From the NCBI GenBank assembly GCA_945860225.1, contig CAMAPT010000007.1, positions 62,001-126,000 of the forward strand: 64,000 nucleotides of DNA, given 5' to 3'. The DNA comes from Chitinophaga pinensis. GTDB taxonomy: Bacteria > Bacteroidota > Bacteroidia > B-17B0 > Aurantibacillaceae. Shown in pieces: positions 53,513 through 61,065 of this stretch; within the stretch, counting starts at the first letter, position 1, and every line of letters begins with the position of its first letter. The notes beneath the pieces were generated by a model, which was given only the letters and a program-made list of their open reading frames with translations, did no database searches and was not told the origin of the DNA. The position numbers and the translations under genes were made by a program.

Positions 53513-54010
53513 TACAGTAGAAAATTATGCCTTTTTAAATTTTCGTATCGAGAACTGTTTTAGTACCGACCTCACCCCCGGCCTTCTCCGAAAGGTGTCA
53601 TCCTGAGCCTGTCGAAGGAAAAGGGGAGTGTGTAGATACAATTTTTTGCGAGAGCAAAAGCAAAAAATCACTCAAGGCGACAGAGGTCTGTTCGAGTAGA
53701 AAATTCTGCCTCTTTAAATTTTCGTATCGAGAACTTATTTATGGCCTTTCGATACAATTTTTTGCAAGAACCAAGGCAAAAAATCACTCAAGGCGACGGT
53801 GCTCAGTTCGAGTGAAAATTATGTCTCTTTAAATTTTCGTATCGAGAACTGTTTTAGTACCGGCCTCACCCCCGGCCCCTCTCCAAAGGAAGAGGGGAGT
53901 GTGTAGATACAATTTTTCGCAAGAGCCAAGCCCAAAAATCACTCAAGACGACGGCTGTCTGTTCGAGTAGAAAATTATGCCTTTTTAAATTTTCGTATCG
54001 AGAACTTTTT
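53513..54010. repeat. Array of four dispersed-repeat units (left island border)
   Basis: The core TTTAAATTTTCGTATCGAGA (continuing ACT) occurs at 53534, 53713, 53828 and 53984, each preceded by a GTTCGAGTAGAAAATT-like segment. Between cores lie variable segments with CCTCACCCCCGGCC, an AGAGGGG hairpin arm, and an inverted repeat ATTTTTTGC...GCAAAAAAT. The first unit also contains TCCTGAGCCTGTCGAAGGA, a sequence common in Bacteroidota intergenic repeats. No coding region is seen from 53437 to 54162. Related units lie at 56669-56734 and 60831-61007. Confidence 0.85.
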
Positions 54011-54162
54011 TAATGTCTTTCAATCCAAAATGTATCTTTAAAATCGAGGTACGAGATTCGCTGATACATAAATAAAATAATAGTATCATCAGGACTCGCT
54101 CTCGGCTCCTATTCGAAATCAAATAGACAAAAAAATCAAAAAGGTAATACGTTTATTATTAT

Positions 54163-54582
54163 TTATTTTTTATAACAAACAGTCATCATATAATTTTTAA
54201 CCTCCCAAAGAAAGAGAATGGCATATATGGCGGATATAAAACCAAATAAAACGGCCGATAGAACAAGGAAAACTGTGCCAGACTCATATTTGATACCTAT
54301 TAAAGATGATATACTTACTAAAAATAGTTGTATAGTAAAATGAAAATATTCAATGATTGTAAATACCTGTTTGTTTTTTAAGCCATATCTAAAAATTAAA
54401 AATATCGTAAATAAGGCATTTACCGTCATTCCAAAATAGGTTAGGATTACTTTAAAACTAAACGTAGGGAGTGAATAAAATTTAGAAATGACTCCGGCAT
54501 ACAGGATTAAGGCCATACTTAATACAATTAATATTACAAGCAGTATGGCTGTTTTTTTATCTGTTTTTTGAATGGCAGCCAT
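54163..54582 (-). CDS. Small four-helix membrane protein, island
   Basis: The 139-residue protein has four hydrophobic segments (about 12-32, 40-63, 80-100, 103-125) and few charged loops. I recognise no family. Its ATG overlaps the stop of the preceding gene as TAATG (54584-54580), so translation is coupled to the 121-residue protein. Both would be controlled by the palindrome at 54979-55001. Confidence 0.7.
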   Translation of the reverse strand: MAAIQKTDKKTAILLVILIVLSMALILYAGVISKFYSLPTFSFKVILTYFGMTVNALFTIFLIFRYGLKNKQVFTIIEYFHFTIQLFLVSISSLIGIKYESGTVFLVLSAVLFGFISAIYAILFLWEVKNYMMTVCYKK

Positions 54583-54947
54583 TATGTTTTGTTTTTAATT
54601 AGTTTAATCTGTTCTACTTTACCCTTGTTGACAGAAATTTTATAAGTACACGCCTTGCCCTCAATTTCAGTTTTAAGAAAAATGTCTTTTGTAATTTCAA
54701 TCAAAACCAGTCCTATAAATTTGGATTTTTGTATTCTTCTTTGAGAAACTTTGTTACCAACTTTCTGTTTTTGAGTTATTACTTCCCACTGTTCACGGTA
54801 CAAATAGCCATCATAACTAATGGTGTATTGCTCGTTTCTGTTAAATCCCCAATCAATATCAAAATTAATTTCAAGATTTCTTTTTTGTAAAGCTTTAGAT
54901 ATGGGTAGCAGATAGCTTGGTATTCTTGCTGAATCAGGAGTCTTCAT
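54582..54947 (-). CDS. Hypothetical soluble protein, island
   Basis: The 121-residue protein starts M-K-T-P-D-S-A-R-I-P and is basic, with alternating strand-like segments (Y-T-I-S-Y-D-G-Y-L-Y, C-T-Y-K-I-S-V-N-K-G-K-V). There is no signal or membrane helix and no known family. It is the first gene of a bicistron with the membrane protein and has a TATTTTTG -7 box and an island palindrome upstream. Confidence 0.65.
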   Translation of the reverse strand: MKTPDSARIPSYLLPISKALQKRNLEINFDIDWGFNRNEQYTISYDGYLYREQWEVITQKQKVGNKVSQRRIQKSKFIGLVLIEITKDIFLKTEIEGKACTYKISVNKGKVEQIKLIKNKT

Positions 54948-54963: not shown

Positions 54964-54971
54964 CAAAAATA
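54964..54971 (-). promoter_or_regulatory. -7 box of the island bicistron
   Basis: On the minus strand TATTTTTG matches TAnnTTTG, 17 bases before the ATG at 54947. Its centre is 22.5 bp from the centre of the palindrome at 54980-55000. Confidence 0.5.
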
Positions 54972-54978
54972 GAATGCA

Positions 54979-55001
54979 TAAACGCAGCGTGCATGCGTTT
55001 A
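54979..55001. promoter_or_regulatory. Island palindrome, site A (probable WYL operator)
   Basis: TAAACGCA-GCGTGCA-TGCGTTTA is a perfect 8-bp inverted repeat with a 7-base spacer. It lies between the WYL gene and the bicistron, across the expected -33 region of the bicistron promoter. A repressor bound here would block it. Confidence 0.6.
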
Positions 55002-55010
55002 ATTATTTTA

Positions 55011-56027
55011 TTAAAGAACAATCTTGTTTTTTTCAAATCTCAATTGAGCAATATCTCTAATTCTGTTTTTAATGTTATCCGTATCTAACAGTACATTTTC
55101 GCAATGTGCCAAAAACCATTGTATGAGTTCGTGTGTAGGAATCACTTTTATAGTCATTCTTGTCAACAAAGGATGGGTTTGACGCGAAATTTTTTGGCTA
55201 TGATGAAGAGGGTTCATTTCTAGTAGATAACTATATTTATTAGAAACGTAAAATTTAATAATTTGCTTTTTTTCGTTTTTTAAAGGATACACTCCGTACA
55301 TATCCTTAGCATATTTAACTACCTCTTTGCGCTTACTATCGTTAAATTTAATGGTTGTTATTACATCAAAATCAGGCATAATTCTATCAAACCCATAAAC
55401 CTTTAATTGCTTGGATAATTGCGAATAGGCCAACAAATACCATTTATGATTAAATTCTAATAGCTGATAGGGGTGAACAACGATTATATCGGCTTCCGTT
55501 AAACTTAAATAAAATATTTTGATGACTTCCTTTTTTTTAATATGCTCTAATAATGGCTTGTAATGAAAAAATCCCCATTGTTGAGGTGCTTGCTGAGAAA
55601 CAACTAAAGGGATTGAGTCGTGCGTGGTTGCTTTTTTTACGGATAAACTATTGATGAGTTTGATACATGCGCCACGGCATTCGTCGTTCATATGTTTTTT
55701 GCTAATAGTACTCCATAATTCCAAAGTTTCTGCCATTATTTGAGCTTCATCATTACTTAAAGGTATAGCATTAATAGAATAATTTTCATCAGTGTAAAAA
55801 TACCCATCTTTACTTTTGCTATATTTTATAGGAGCTTTGTAACCAAGTACTTCATCTTCTTTCATGGTTTTAATGTCTTTCTGGATGGTACTTACCGAGA
55901 AATCTTTACCCAATGTTTCCTTTAGTGTTTGAATAATATACTCCATCGAAGGAAATGGATGTCGTTTATTTCCAATACAGGAATCAATTATTTTGTACCT
56001 TAAATAGGCTTCTTTATTTAGTGACAT
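55011..56027 (-). CDS. WYL-domain transcriptional regulator
   Basis: The 338-residue protein has an N-terminal winged-helix DNA-binding part (about 5-80: S-V-S-T-I-Q-K-D-I-K-T-M-K-E-D), a linker, a WYL domain (about 160-225: I-F-Y-L-S-L-T-E-A-D, V-V-H-P-Y-Q-L-L-E-F-N-H-K-W-Y-L-L-A-Y) and a C-terminal WCX-like extension (L-I-Q-W-F-L-A-H-C-E-N-V). WYL proteins sense nucleotides or nucleic acid and control many phage-defence systems (BrxR, CapW). Sites matching AAACGCA-N7-TSCGTTT lie around this gene. It is probably the regulator of the island. Confidence 0.9.
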   Translation of the reverse strand: MSLNKEAYLRYKIIDSCIGNKRHPFPSMEYIIQTLKETLGKDFSVSTIQKDIKTMKEDEVLGYKAPIKYSKSKDGYFYTDENYSINAIPLSNDEAQIMAETLELWSTISKKHMNDECRGACIKLINSLSVKKATTHDSIPLVVSQQAPQQWGFFHYKPLLEHIKKKEVIKIFYLSLTEADIIVVHPYQLLEFNHKWYLLAYSQLSKQLKVYGFDRIMPDFDVITTIKFNDSKRKEVVKYAKDMYGVYPLKNEKKQIIKFYVSNKYSYLLEMNPLHHSQKISRQTHPLLTRMTIKVIPTHELIQWFLAHCENVLLDTDNIKNRIRDIAQLRFEKNKIVL

Positions 56028-56043
56028 GTTATTCCAAATATAG

Positions 56044-56066
56044 TAAAACGCATTTAAATAGGTTTA
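56044..56066. promoter_or_regulatory. Island palindrome half-site at the WYL promoter
   Basis: TAAAACGCA (56044-56052) matches the left arm of the island palindrome; the right arm (AGGTTTA) is degenerate. It lies just upstream of a TATATTTG -7 box (minus strand, 56042-56035) and the WYL start, which would suit weak autoregulation. Confidence 0.35.
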
Positions 56067-56088
56067 AGTTTTAATTGGTAGTTAGAAT

Positions 56089-56493
56089 CTAATCTGTTTT
56101 TTTATTAATAAATAATTTGATACACATCATGGTGCCAATAATTAAAAAAGCAATTCCTATCAGCAGATGACAAATGGATTTATTAAAATCGCTTAATCTT
56201 TCTATAAAATAGTCATTTAATAATAAGGATCCTACAATTATACATGCGCTTATAACAGTTATTTCCAAAAATAATGTTTTGATTTTTTTAGATATATTTT
56301 TAATATGTATGCTAATGATAAATGGAATAATGGATACACAAATACAAGATATAGGTAAAATATCAGCTAGTGTATTTGTTTTATTTAGAACTCGTATTAG
56401 CTCTATGTATAAACTAACGGTTATGATATCAAAAGCTATGATACACAATATGGTTGTTGCTTTTTCTAATTTGGTTTGTTGAGTGGATTCCAT
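56089..56493 (-). CDS. Small four-helix membrane protein, island
   Basis: The 134-residue protein has four hydrophobic helices (about 13-33, 43-63, 75-93, 105-127) and short charged loops. The family is unknown. It resembles the 139-residue island protein in size and topology, though not clearly in sequence. Its promoter region (56531-56568) carries the -7 box TAGTTTTG and a perfect palindrome. Confidence 0.65.
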   Translation of the reverse strand: MESTQQTKLEKATTILCIIAFDIITVSLYIELIRVLNKTNTLADILPISCICVSIIPFIISIHIKNISKKIKTLFLEITVISACIIVGSLLLNDYFIERLSDFNKSICHLLIGIAFLIIGTMMCIKLFINKKTD

Positions 56494-56530
56494 GAGCTTT
56501 TTTTTAGTATTTGTATAATTTATTTTTACA

Positions 56531-56568
56531 CAAAACTAATTTTGTAAAACGCACTGATTATGCGTTTT
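56531..56568 (-). promoter_or_regulatory. -7 box and island palindrome, site B
   Basis: TAGTTTTG (minus strand, 56538-56531) is a TAnnTTTG box. AAAACGCA-CTGATTA-TGCGTTTT (56546-56568) is a perfect 8-bp inverted repeat with a 7-base spacer. The centre-to-centre distance is 22.5 bp, the same as at the bicistron promoter. Confidence 0.6.
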
Positions 56569-56668: not shown

Positions 56669-56734
56669 CGTCTGTTAGAATTAAAATTCTGTTTTTTGAA
56701 TTTTTATATCGAGAAATTTTTTAATGCCTTTTAC
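56669..56734. repeat. Degenerate copy of the dispersed repeat
   Basis: This stretch aligns to GTCTGTTCGAGTAGAAAATT... and the TATCGAGAA core of the border repeats, with many changes. It is an older copy inside the island. Confidence 0.6.
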
Positions 56735-56735
56735 T

Positions 56736-56757
56736 AAAACGCAAATAGAATCCGTTT
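56736..56757. promoter_or_regulatory. Island palindrome, site C
   Basis: AAAACGCA-AATAGAA-TCCGTTT is the island palindrome with one mismatch in the right arm. It lies 65 bases before the broken gene at 56823 (plus strand). Confidence 0.5.
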
Positions 56758-56822: not shown

Positions 56823-57071
56823 ATGCACAAGGACGAAAAAAACACATTTGACCATGAAGCACAAAAAGCACAATAACTTAAACATATTCATGAGTATTCA
56901 CCACTTATTAAAACGCCATTAGATCCAAGTGATGTAAGAGATCTTTGCCGTTGTATTTTCCGAAAACAAATAACCATTGATTTGCTTTCTAATGAAGTAT
57001 TTGAAGAATTAAAAGCAACCGATTTTTTTAAATCACTGTTGTCTAATAATAAAATACAAATTAGTACTTAA
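56823..57071 (+). pseudogene. Small island gene interrupted by TAA
   Basis: The frame runs for 83 codons from ATG 56823 to TAA 57069 with one internal stop at codon 18 (56874-56876). After the stop it reads L-K-H-I-H-E-Y-S-P-L-I-K-T and continues with D-V-R-D-L-C-R. The first 70 bases after the stop region recur at 59442-59510, where the matching codon is CAG. I recognise no family. It has an island palindrome upstream. Confidence 0.5.
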
Positions 57072-57739: not shown

Positions 57740-58264
57740 ATGAAAAATTTAAGACTTAAATATAAATTAGCTATTATTCCTAAAGACACTATTCTATTTA
57801 GAAAAGCTCCCGACAATGGAATTTATGAATCTATGTATTTTAGTTTTAATTCAAGTGGCACGTATAGTTCTGACTTTAATTCTGGACCAATACAACAATG
57901 GAAAACAAAACAAACTATTATCTCACGCTTAATAGTAAAGGGTAAAATTTCTCCGCTCATATATGGTACTGATTTAGAATTTTGTTACCATCAATTCTGT
58001 GGTGAGGACAAGTATTATTTAGACGTGAAGCATCGCCATAATCCTAAATGCAAAGACTTCTTAGCTTCTTTAAAAAACATTGGAATTGATAGTTGGGTAA
58101 CATCTATTCATAATGGAACTGACATAGAATTACATTTGTTTACAGACAATAATAAAAATTTAATTCAATTCAAAAAAAATATTAACAATGAAAAAAATAG
58201 AATTATAATAAACAAAGATTCTTTTAATAAAGTAATTTTATTAGACCCGAAAGATTACACATAG
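57740..58264 (+). CDS. Hypothetical protein, weakly ART-like, island
   Basis: The 174-residue protein has the N-terminal pattern I-I-P-K-D-T-I-L-F-R-K followed by S-M-Y-F-S-F-N-S and a region with L-I-V-K-G-K-I-S. This arrangement (K-x-T-x-L-x-R, then Y-F-S) vaguely recalls ADP-ribosyltransferase- or RES-type toxins, but I cannot name the catalytic residues. It may equally be unrelated. Its end overlaps the pseudogene on the other strand. It is A/T-rich like the rest of the island. Confidence 0.5.
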   Translation: MKNLRLKYKLAIIPKDTILFRKAPDNGIYESMYFSFNSSGTYSSDFNSGPIQQWKTKQTIISRLIVKGKISPLIYGTDLEFCYHQFCGEDKYYLDVKHRHNPKCKDFLASLKNIGIDSWVTSIHNGTDIELHLFTDNNKNLIQFKKNINNEKNRIIINKDSFNKVILLDPKDYT

Positions 58265-58648: not shown

Positions 58649-59395
58649 TTAGCCGCCTAATAATTTTTTTTGTCTTACCGCAAAAGGAAACCAACATTTT
58701 CTTTGCTTATTTACTTTCAATATTGGAGTTTGCTCATCAGTCAAATAATTAACAATATATTTTTTTGTTTTTGTAATGGCATGATGAATGGGTAAAATAT
58801 TAAAACTACTTGGTTTTTCAACCCATTCTTTTGTTGTGTTAAGTAGTGATGTTGTAAAATATCCTCCATGATTATTGTCAAAGGATGTCTCTCCGATACA
58901 ACAAGAATAACAAACAATAATTCCGTTCTCACATTTATTTATATATCCGTCAAATAGTCGTCGTGCCTTTGTTTTTAGTAACCTTGATGGAAATGAACAC
59001 AACTCCTCACCTATAAACCCTGAGATTCCACTGTCAACAAAACTTCTACAAGCGTCAACAATAAGCATTTGCTTTGGAACTTTTTTTGCAATTAAATTAT
59101 TAAGAGTTAAATACTCCGTTCTATTAATAGCAAGAATAGTTTGCCCTTGAAGGGAATAAGCACCATGCCCAGAAAAAACAATCAGTAAATAGTCCGCATC
59201 TACTTTGTTAATTGTATTAAGCAATGTGTTCTTCTCAGGATTTTTTATTGCAAGGATTTCAGTTTTGTCCCACGCACCGCCAGTTGGAGACTTTAAGAAC
59301 TTTATATAATTCTTAATATCATACTCAACACCATGAAGATATTTTTGTGTATTTTCTTGTCCTGGTGCTTCGATTAAAATTGCTTGTCGTTTCAT
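58649..59395 (-). CDS. Caspase-like protease 1 (peptidase C14), island
   Basis: The 248-residue protein is a bare caspase-fold domain. It has V-F-S-G-H-G-A with the catalytic His near 77 and I-V-D-A-C-R-S with the catalytic Cys near 116, and an N-terminal strand M-K-R-Q-A-I-L-I-E-A-P-G. There is no added effector, repeat or membrane part. It is the last gene of a minus-strand operon after caspase 2. Such stand-alone bacterial caspases act as effectors or activators in several defence systems; the target here is unknown. The start is ATG 59395. Confidence 0.88.
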   Translation of the reverse strand: MKRQAILIEAPGQENTQKYLHGVEYDIKNYIKFLKSPTGGAWDKTEILAIKNPEKNTLLNTINKVDADYLLIVFSGHGAYSLQGQTILAINRTEYLTLNNLIAKKVPKQMLIVDACRSFVDSGISGFIGEELCSFPSRLLKTKARRLFDGYINKCENGIIVCYSCCIGETSFDNNHGGYFTTSLLNTTKEWVEKPSSFNILPIHHAITKTKKYIVNYLTDEQTPILKVNKQRKCWFPFAVRQKKLLGG

Positions 59396-59441
59396 TTTAT
59401 GTTAAATCAAGGGTTCTCAAATTTAGTTGGAAGTTCAATAT

Positions 59442-59510
59442 CACACAGCTTAAACAAATTCACGAGTATTTACTCCTTATTAAATGCCGCTACACTCTAG
59501 TGATGTATAA
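59442..59510. repeat. Second copy of the broken-gene segment between the caspases
   Basis: This stretch aligns over about 68 bases (roughly 70% by eye) with 56869-56937 of the interrupted island gene. It fills most of the gap between the two caspase genes and enters the 3' end of caspase 2, whose last codons are read antisense through it. Confidence 0.55.
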
Positions 59511-60262
59511 GTGTGTTTCACACCAATCGGAAAGTTTGGTTTTAGTTCTGTAACCAAATACGAAGGTCTTTGAGTTGTTTGGCCTGAAGTATAATTCCTT
59601 TTAAGAAAAGTGGTCGTCATTTTACCAACTTCTAAAGCCGTCAAAACACTATCACCAGTATTGATATTCGACCAATGTTGAGAGGAAGTAAGCAAAGCAT
59701 AACTAAAAAAACTACCTGTTTGTGTCAATACAGACTCTTGCCCACGTGAACATGACATCAAAATCTGCGTTCCATTTGGACTGTTTTTTATAGCATCATT
59801 AAATAATTGACGCGCGCGAGGTTTAGCAATCGAAGAACGAAAACTCATGTACTTTTCCACATTGTCGATACCTTCAAAATAATGATACCCTTCCATGTAA
59901 CTCTGACAAGAATCAGAGATAATAAGTTTTTTTGGTGATTGTATATTGTCAATTATAGTTTGAACTGCAACGGCATCATCCGCATTGATATTAAAAACCA
60001 TCTTTTCTGTATTAGTTGCAAAGAAACCATGGCCACTAAAAATGAAAATTGTGAAATCGGCTTTTGAAGTTATCAATTTTGCTTTTAAGTATTTCCAGCC
60101 TGGATTTTTTAAAATTGTTATCTCGTTGTCAGAATCAAAAGCACCGCCTATCGCTGATTGAAAGTAGCGATTGTAATTAATAACGTCTGCCTTAATTCCA
60201 CTTTGAAAAGAGCCATTTTCATTAACAGGAGAACCTACTATAAAAATTTTACGTGTAAACAT
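59480..60262 (-). CDS. Caspase-like protease 2 (peptidase C14), island
   Basis: The start is ATG 60262 (260 residues); an earlier frame start at 60316 overlaps the upstream gene and has no family support. F-I-F-S-G-H-G holds the catalytic His (about 78), and I-I-S-D-S-C-Q-S holds the Cys (about 119). The N-terminus has M-F-T-R-K-I-F-I-V-G-S-P-V. It is clearly related to caspase 1 in layout but diverged. The last 11-12 residues are encoded by the antisense of the repeat at 59442-59510. It follows the 60270 gene by seven bases. Confidence 0.87.
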   Translation of the reverse strand: MFTRKIFIVGSPVNENGSFQSGIKADVINYNRYFQSAIGGAFDSDNEITILKNPGWKYLKAKLITSKADFTIFIFSGHGFFATNTEKMVFNINADDAVAVQTIIDNIQSPKKLIISDSCQSYMEGYHYFEGIDNVEKYMSFRSSIAKPRARQLFNDAIKNSPNGTQILMSCSRGQESVLTQTGSFFSYALLTSSQHWSNINTGDSVLTALEVGKMTTTFLKRNYTSGQTTQRPSYLVTELKPNFPIGVKHTYTSLECSGI

Positions 60263-60269
60263 ACTTTTC

Positions 60270-60692
60270 TTAATTAAATATTGCCCAGTTTTTATTAGGT
60301 ACTCCCTTAATACCATAATAAACTACAAAATCAAATTCTTCTTGAGAGGTTGCAGAAATATAAATGTGTTTATCTACTAAGCTTGTAGATAAAATCTTAG
60401 GGAATGTAGTAAAACCCTTTCTACCAATGCCAAAATAATACATGTTGGCATTGTTCTTTTTTTCGAGAAGTCTTAATGGTACTTTTACAGTCTCGCAAGA
60501 TATTACATTTTCGTTGTCAAAATTGAAATTAAGGGTTATGGCATCAATATTACCCTTTTTCATTTCAATCCCTATTAAAAGTATATGCCCATTTAATGCA
60601 AGAACTTTTTGAAATTTCTCTGAATTTTTAAGTGTGAATTTCATGTCTATTTTTGTTAAGTTATCAATAGGATTCACTTCCAATTTTTTCAT
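60270..60692 (-). CDS. Hypothetical protein leading the caspase operon
   Basis: The start is set at ATG 60692 (140 residues). The frame is open up to ATG 60761, but that start would put the island palindrome (60728-60748) inside the gene; ATG 60644 is another choice. The protein is mostly beta-strand (L-N-G-H-I-L-L-I-G-I-E-M, A-I-T-L-N-F-N-F-D) and ends in V-V-Y-Y-G-I-K-G-V-P-N-K-N-W-A. It has no signal peptide, membrane helix or family I know. As the first gene before two proteases it may be their substrate, inhibitor or sensor; that is a guess. Confidence 0.6.
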   Translation of the reverse strand: MKKLEVNPIDNLTKIDMKFTLKNSEKFQKVLALNGHILLIGIEMKKGNIDAITLNFNFDNENVISCETVKVPLRLLEKKNNANMYYFGIGRKGFTTFPKILSTSLVDKHIYISATSQEEFDFVVYYGIKGVPNKNWAIFN

Positions 60693-60727: not shown

Positions 60728-60748
60728 GAACGCAAAGGAAATCCGTTT
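60728..60748. promoter_or_regulatory. Island palindrome, site D, before the caspase operon
   Basis: GAACGCA-AAGGAAA-TCCGTTT matches the consensus AAACGCA-N7-TSCGTTT except for the first base. It carries the same right arm as site C. It lies 36 bases upstream of the ATG used for the operon's first gene. Confidence 0.5.
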
Positions 60749-60830
60749 TACAATAGATCATGAATTTTCATGAAAAACGAAATAATTCCCCAATAGTAGA
60801 GTTGATTTTTCGATTTTAAATTCAACTCAT

Positions 60831-61007
60831 TTTTAATTTTCGTATCGAGAACTGTTAGTACCGGCCTCACCCCGGGCCGCTCTACAAAGGAAGAGGAGAG
60901 TATATAAATACAATTTTTTGTAAGAACCAAGTCAAAAAATCACTCAAGGGGATGATGGTCTGTTCGAGTAGAAAATTCTGCCTCTTTAAATTTTCGTATC
61001 GAGAACT
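60831..61007. repeat. Dispersed repeat units (right island border)
   Basis: Two cores of the same family as 53513-54010 lie at 60831 and 60985, with the CCGGCCTCACCCC segment, the GAAGAGGAGAG arm and the ATTTTTTG...CAAAAAAT inverted repeat between them. This array closes the island on the side of the core gene yigZ. Confidence 0.85.
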
Positions 61008-61065
61008 TATTTAATATCCTTATAACGGTTTATGTATCTTGTGAAAAAGATTTAAATTTAGAACG

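Follow-up and report, generated by a model that had tools for sequence, protein, structure and literature searches.

Two palindromes in the analysed stretch of DNA (64,000 nucleotides of the Chitinophaga pinensis contig CAMAPT010000007.1; hereafter the window) are well-supported candidate operators of the WYL-domain protein encoded between them. We favour, with a probability of roughly 0.6, the reading that this protein is an activator of small membrane proteins acting like DriD over the reading that it is a repressor. WYL regulators are very common, and the sites are known for few of them. In the literature, no paper was found on such regulators in Bacteroidota.

The WYL block and its palindromes

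All genes of the block are located on the minus strand. The gene of the 338-aa WYL regulator (55011–56027), recognized by domain and model evidence, lies between a bicistron, whose reading frames encode a 121-aa protein (first gene, 54582–54947) and a 139-aa protein (second gene, 54163–54582), and a reading frame for a 134-aa protein (56089–56493). The 139-aa and 134-aa proteins contain about four hydrophobic segments each, the 121-aa protein none. No match to any of the three proteins was found in PADLOC or PHROGs and none above the cut-off in Pfam and NCBIfam; their homologues in relatives were limited to marginal matches, some with stop codons, and a clear homologue of the 121-aa protein was absent among 100 relatives. 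The 139-aa protein is not considered a homologue of the 134-aa protein, as their similarity is no higher than shuffled scores.

Each palindrome precedes one of these transcription units. Both were confirmed to the base when the sequence was re-read, with arms perfect over 8 bp, and the centre-to-centre distance of 22.5 bp to the -7 box, reported for both sites by the first-pass annotation, was obtained again on re-measurement. Moreover, the two sites share one arm sequence and one spacer length, AAACGCA-N7-TGCGTTT, which had not been stated before. Operator 1, located 5' of the bicistron (54980–55000, minus strand; centre 54990), reads TAAACGCA-TGCACGC-TGCGTTTA, and its 8-bp arms are reached by extension to 54979–55001; the -7 box of the bicistron is TATTTTTG (54964–54971, minus strand). 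Operator 2, located 5' of the 134-aa gene (56547–56567, minus strand; centre 56557; 8-bp arms at 56546–56568), reads AAAACGCA-TAATCAG-TGCGTTTT and is followed by the -7 box TAGTTTTG (56531–56538, minus strand). Overall, operator arms have a 7-bp core and reach 10 bp at most, with a spacer of 7 bp. A -7 box of the Bacteroidota primary-sigma type, TAnnTTTG, is present at both predicted promoters of the window and at most of the homologous ones.

A possible weak site was revealed at the promoter of the WYL gene itself (56046–56066, minus strand), beside its -7 box TATATTTG (56035–56042, minus strand). It consists of one good arm, AAACGCA on the plus strand at 56046–56052, and a badly degraded second arm, and the centre of this half-site is 17.5 bp from the -7 box, versus 22.5 bp at operators 1 and 2. 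A further copy with one mismatch, AAACGCA-N7-TCCGTTT (56737–56757, strand not assigned), is of uncertain status; TTTG was absent at the expected offset on both strands. Just past it, at 56824–57071, a short frame (MHKDEKNTFDHEAQKAQ, then TAA) and an open stretch resemble a degraded gene. At 60728–60748, an operator with two mismatches falls within the beginning of a 163-aa frame next to the caspase-domain genes mentioned below; a -7 box is absent at the expected distance.

Several other features surround the block. The gene at 57740–58264 encodes a 174-aa protein whose close homologue adjoins a WYL gene in the same-genus genome G015 (L015:285–809), and two adjacent caspase-domain (Peptidase_C14) genes are located nearby on the minus strand (58649–60316). 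An intergenic element, REP-like in appearance (TTTCGTATCGAGAACT..., copies up to 167 nt), flanks the block on both sides and recurs past the caspase-like genes (53520–54033, 56682–56720 and 60818–61034).

An inverted-repeat pair with identical arms (at least 3 G/C), equal spacer length and a distance below 2 kb was found once in the real window and never when the window was resampled 40 times with a first-order Markov model. The whole 2.9-Mb genome contains three perfect matches to AAACGCA-N7-TGCGTTT, while about 0.01 is predicted from base composition. The third match, C13:35151–35171 (L005:5152–5172), is AAACGCAACAGTGTTGCGTTT, a 10-1-10 palindrome with a fully palindromic centre; it precedes the gene of a predicted metal transporter, within a COG0523/Fur-like metal-handling cluster. 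This match probably represents a Zur box, and no TTTG is present at the distance seen for the two operators. A similar palindrome was also seen in G115.

Conservation and spacing in other Bacteroidota

Perfect operators were found near WYL homologues that are only 31–46% identical to the window regulator: there were 8 in 47 loci, against 0.05 expected by shuffling. Since L028, L031 and L079 are copies of one place, and L029, L032 and L089 of another, the number of independent sites is below 8. The presence of the operator follows the recognition helix. When loci with a helix resembling [ST][AT]IQKD[IL]K[AT][ML]KED were taken as helix-matched, the operator was present in 8 of 9 such loci and in 2 of the 38 others (Fisher P 1.2e-6, with shared ancestry ignored). 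The two latter sites have variant arms, AAACGTA and AACCGCA, and in the ninth helix-matched locus (L080) the operator lies 2.7 kb away from the WYL gene. In L079, L089 and L030 an operator is also found before the regulator's own gene, and the full sites before the relatives' own WYL genes sit 22.5–23.5 bp from the -7 box.

Among 395 sampled genomes of the class, 11 contained a perfect site. Three of them (G040, G174 and G100) had no WYL match at E 1e-30; their perfect matches lie within coding sequence, have no -7 box at the offset and were taken as chance. G115 does contain a WYL match, but its perfect site has a Zur-like centre. The additional perfect sites of G253 were rejected as well, being located within coding sequence or having, on the serving strand, no TTTG at the expected distance. 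In G387, 49 matches with at most one mismatch were revealed, and we do not consider them a regulon: those sampled belong to an intergenic element that recurs together with its flanks and resembles a repeat. This element (AACCGCAT..ATGCGTTT and AACCGCAT(N)ATGCGTTTTAGGAGTT; e.g., L095:4133, L096:4376, L097:4199) is present in dozens of near-identical copies between genes and mimics the operator. Viral contigs contained neither a WYL relative nor a match to the operator plus TTTG, and in plasmids WYL relatives were found only at 23–34% identity.

It should be added that a small unrecognised family (LLRx..TK[IV]DFGYQ...GGW) adjoins the WYL genes of many relatives (e.g., L030:1969–2388, L079:5624–6028, L014:2537–3004, L082:3117–3551) and is absent from the window; DUF932, vWA and RmuC genes are also found nearby.

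The distance to the -7 box was analyzed in a de-duplicated set of 17 sites picked by their arms alone. TTTG started at offset 12 in 12 flanks and at offset 13 in three, with 0.15 per other offset (P ~2e-20). Thus, the distance of 22.5 bp (23.5 bp in a few cases) is kept over some fifteen unrelated promoters, which serve the WYL gene itself, DUF932, small uncharacterised proteins and membrane proteins. TA is missing from some of these -7 boxes (TTTCTTTG, TTCCTTTG, AATCTTTG), which fits promoters in need of help.

The same spacing was revealed in 36 other Bacteroidota WYL loci that lack AAACGCA arms. Here the distance to TTTG was tallied for 7-N7-7 palindromes of any sequence that have a CG core and six or more matched pairs out of 7: eight lie at offset 12, while other offsets have a mean of ~0.4 and shuffles give 0.065. 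Without the CG requirement, offset 12 had four palindromes, all with a CG core, and no other offset more than one. In such distant loci the arms have changed (e.g., CTCCGTA, CTACGCA), and the CG core, the 7-N7-7 layout and offset 12 are kept. For several of the sites, located in the interval that separates the WYL gene from a divergent one, the spacing suits the divergent gene, which encodes TROVE (Ro60-like; L023:1318–1338, L026:2599–2619, L027:1319–1339), RtcB (L019:2518–2538) or a small uncharacterised protein (L009, L039). The TROVE and RtcB sites suggest WYL control of RNA repair in Bacteroidota. Sites at offset 12 or 13 within coding sequence of L020, L045, L052 and L038 were counted and not relied on, being probably due to chance or misplaced starts; in L021 and L039 the site overlaps the start of the WYL frame as called, which is probably over-extended. 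As related sequences are not independent, the P values overstate the case; the best safeguard against inflation by shared ancestry is that one spacing recurs although the arm sequences have changed.

Activation or repression

The first-pass annotation had suggested repression by a dimer placed over the -33 region. A WYL dimer operator over -33 is well supported, as the site is found again next to related WYL genes and its presence goes with their type of recognition helix, while repression lost ground to the fixed spacing and the DriD layout. From the fixed spacing we infer activation, and this reading is further favoured by the layout, core bases and position of the sites, which match those of DriD, and by the sequence profile, which is nearest to PafBC and DriD. 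Our claim of likeness to DriD is restricted to its way of working at the promoter and does not place the regulator in the ssDNA-sensing DriD/PafBC group.

Sites, spacing, conservation and the link to the recognition helix were observed directly, and from them we infer binding, activation and a ligand as follows. A WYL homodimer would contact the CG cores of both arms and span the -33 region, its distance from the -7 box being constant at 22.5 bp. The bound, ligand-switched dimer would most likely recruit or anchor RNA polymerase at promoters with a weak -33, as DriD does, and the 134-aa gene and the 121/139-aa bicistron would be activated as a result. As the trigger, the WYL domain would probably bind a nucleic acid or nucleotide that arises upon damage or infection. 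The weak -33 was rejected as proof of activation, TTG at -33 being merely weakly enriched in the genome (~23% of TAnnTTTG promoters versus ~11% at control positions). The fixed spacing makes the choice between activation and repression directly testable, by shifting one site half a helical turn.

Repression of the BrxR/CapW type, the main rival, appears less likely: here the WYL dimer on -33 would block RNA polymerase, and a ligand from infection or damage would release it. The sites do overlap the core promoter. An operator before the regulator's own gene, as seen in L079, L089 and L030, is usual for a repressor, and the half-site beside the WYL -7 box in the window fits autorepression; the fold scores of DriD and BrxR are nearly tied, with the three-helix region modelled at low confidence. 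Furthermore, BrxR (BREX) and CapW (CBASS) are WYL repressors acting on promoter palindromes (PMC9122601, PMC9122589, PMC9122588), and the site of the Acinetobacter BrxR, a proposed repressor, overlaps -35. However, BrxR sites have 10–11-bp arms with a 5-bp spacer and CapW sites overlap -10 (PMC9122601, PMC9122589, PMC9122588), whereas 7-N7-7 sites are found here, and the sequence profile is nearer to DriD and PafBC. Repression is also disfavoured because different promoters, and sites with diverged arms, keep one spacing to the -7 box, which occlusion does not need.

The two actions might also be combined, with activation at the 22.5-bp promoters and weak autorepression at the WYL promoter, whose half-site lies 5 bp nearer to -7. 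With 17.5 bp between its centre and the -7 box, this half-site is indeed half a helical turn off operators 1 and 2, but such a dual role is improbable given the badly degraded second arm and the full sites at 22.5–23.5 bp before the relatives' WYL genes. It is more improbable still that the sites belong to another regulator or that their shared spacing is coincidental. The probable Zur box at C13:35151 makes the pattern alone unspecific, and three genomes without a strong WYL match have a perfect one; yet the matches in those genomes fall inside genes and have no -7 box at the required distance, and the association of helix and operator, together with the spike in offsets, is far outside chance. 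Activation by the WYL dimer thus remains the reading we prefer.

The regulator, its ligand and known WYL systems

The WYL domain of the regulator (PF13280) was recognized with 33.7 bits against a curated cut-off of 21.8, and W196-Y197 are invariant across 17 relatives. The protein is composed of a wHTH (recognition helix at approximately residues 45–57), a three-helix region (92–164), the WYL domain (168–223) and WCX (255–337). The N-terminal wHTH and C-terminal WCX are seen in the predicted model m0d1d1b3352ee and in full-length matches to DriD and PafBC; Pfam HTH_11 matches the regulator only below the cut-off. The helices between wHTH and WYL (92–108, 115–129 and 153–164) are predicted at low pLDDT, and the profile alignment to DriD covers residues 93–331. 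A single-sequence search of solved proteins revealed no relatives, and an alignment profile was needed: with the profile of 17 family members, the nearest solved relatives were PafBC (2e-17) and DriD (2e-11), followed by BrxR (1e-4) and CapW (0.1). By fold comparison, the predicted model is closest to DriD (Z 12.6–15.6), with BrxR (Z 13.0–13.8) almost level.

The arginine pair that binds ssDNA in PafB, R211/R214, is conserved in DriD and corresponds to G212/R215 in the window regulator, so that one of the two is kept; Gly is found at the R211 equivalent in nearly all family members. For this reason ssDNA is not assumed as the ligand, which may differ. A nucleic-acid fragment or nucleotide would be the most natural ligand class, given that the protein has a WYL domain and that distant members adjoin TROVE/RtcB genes.

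Tentatively, and at somewhat less than even odds, it can be hypothesized that these proteins represent a large undescribed family of Bacteroidota WYL activators. They would recognize NNNCGNN-N7-NNCGNNN at a fixed 22.5 bp from -7, in place of -33, with clade-specific arms, a nucleic-acid ligand not of the DriD/PafBC type, and stress, RNA-repair (TROVE, RtcB) or uncharacterised membrane-protein cargo. An operator rule read from sequence alone, across many Bacteroidota, would allow WYL targets to be listed, and the TROVE/RtcB promoter link points to a non-SOS damage response in Bacteroidota.

BrxR and CapW resemble the window system in being wHTH-WYL-WCX dimers with palindromic sites beside the regulator gene, and the fold of the regulator is nearly as close to theirs as to that of DriD. 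They differ in their weak sequence match and in their sites, since a 7-N7-7 site centred 22.5 bp upstream of -7 is unlike both the BrxR arms and spacer and the CapW overlap with -10; besides, BREX and CBASS are absent among the 121-, 139- and 134-aa genes (PADLOC).

SiwR of Mycobacterium smegmatis is a WYL activator (PMC10693628) that was set beside the window system by description, not by sequence. It is a homodimer with neighbouring targets and an imperfect palindrome over the -35 to -10 region; this palindrome is 19 bp long, and the cargo (DinB-like) is different.

PafBC of mycobacteria is a heterodimeric WYL activator acting by sigma adaptation, which places one HTH on DNA at about -24 and cannot bind its site without RNA polymerase (PMC11804915). 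It is the best profile match among solved proteins; its site lies between -35 and -10, just upstream of -10, and the WYL Tyr and the second ligand Arg are conserved in the window regulator. In contrast to the single HTH of this heterodimer, the symmetric palindrome found here implies that both HTHs bind.

DriD of Caulobacter crescentus, a homodimeric WYL activator triggered by ssDNA, recognizes the consensus ATACGAC-N7-GTCGTAT; its sites cover a poor -35 and keep a constant distance from -10 (PMC12340889). At the bidirectional promoter of its own gene, DriD serves the divergent operon. The window system differs from it in the Bacteroidota -7/-33 elements, in the Gly at one of the two ligand arginines (PafB numbering) and in its unrelated cargo, for which the small DriD target DidA, a cell-division inhibitor, is an only suggestive parallel. 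The wHTH, three-helix region (the trigger domain of DriD), WYL and WCX are also predicted in the window regulator. Both systems have 7-bp arms with a 7-bp spacer, and A1, A3, C4 and G5 are common to ATACGAC and AAACGCA. Finally, in both the site lies over the -35/-33 element at one fixed distance from -10/-7, and the targets, putative in the window system, are small neighbouring genes, some of them divergent.
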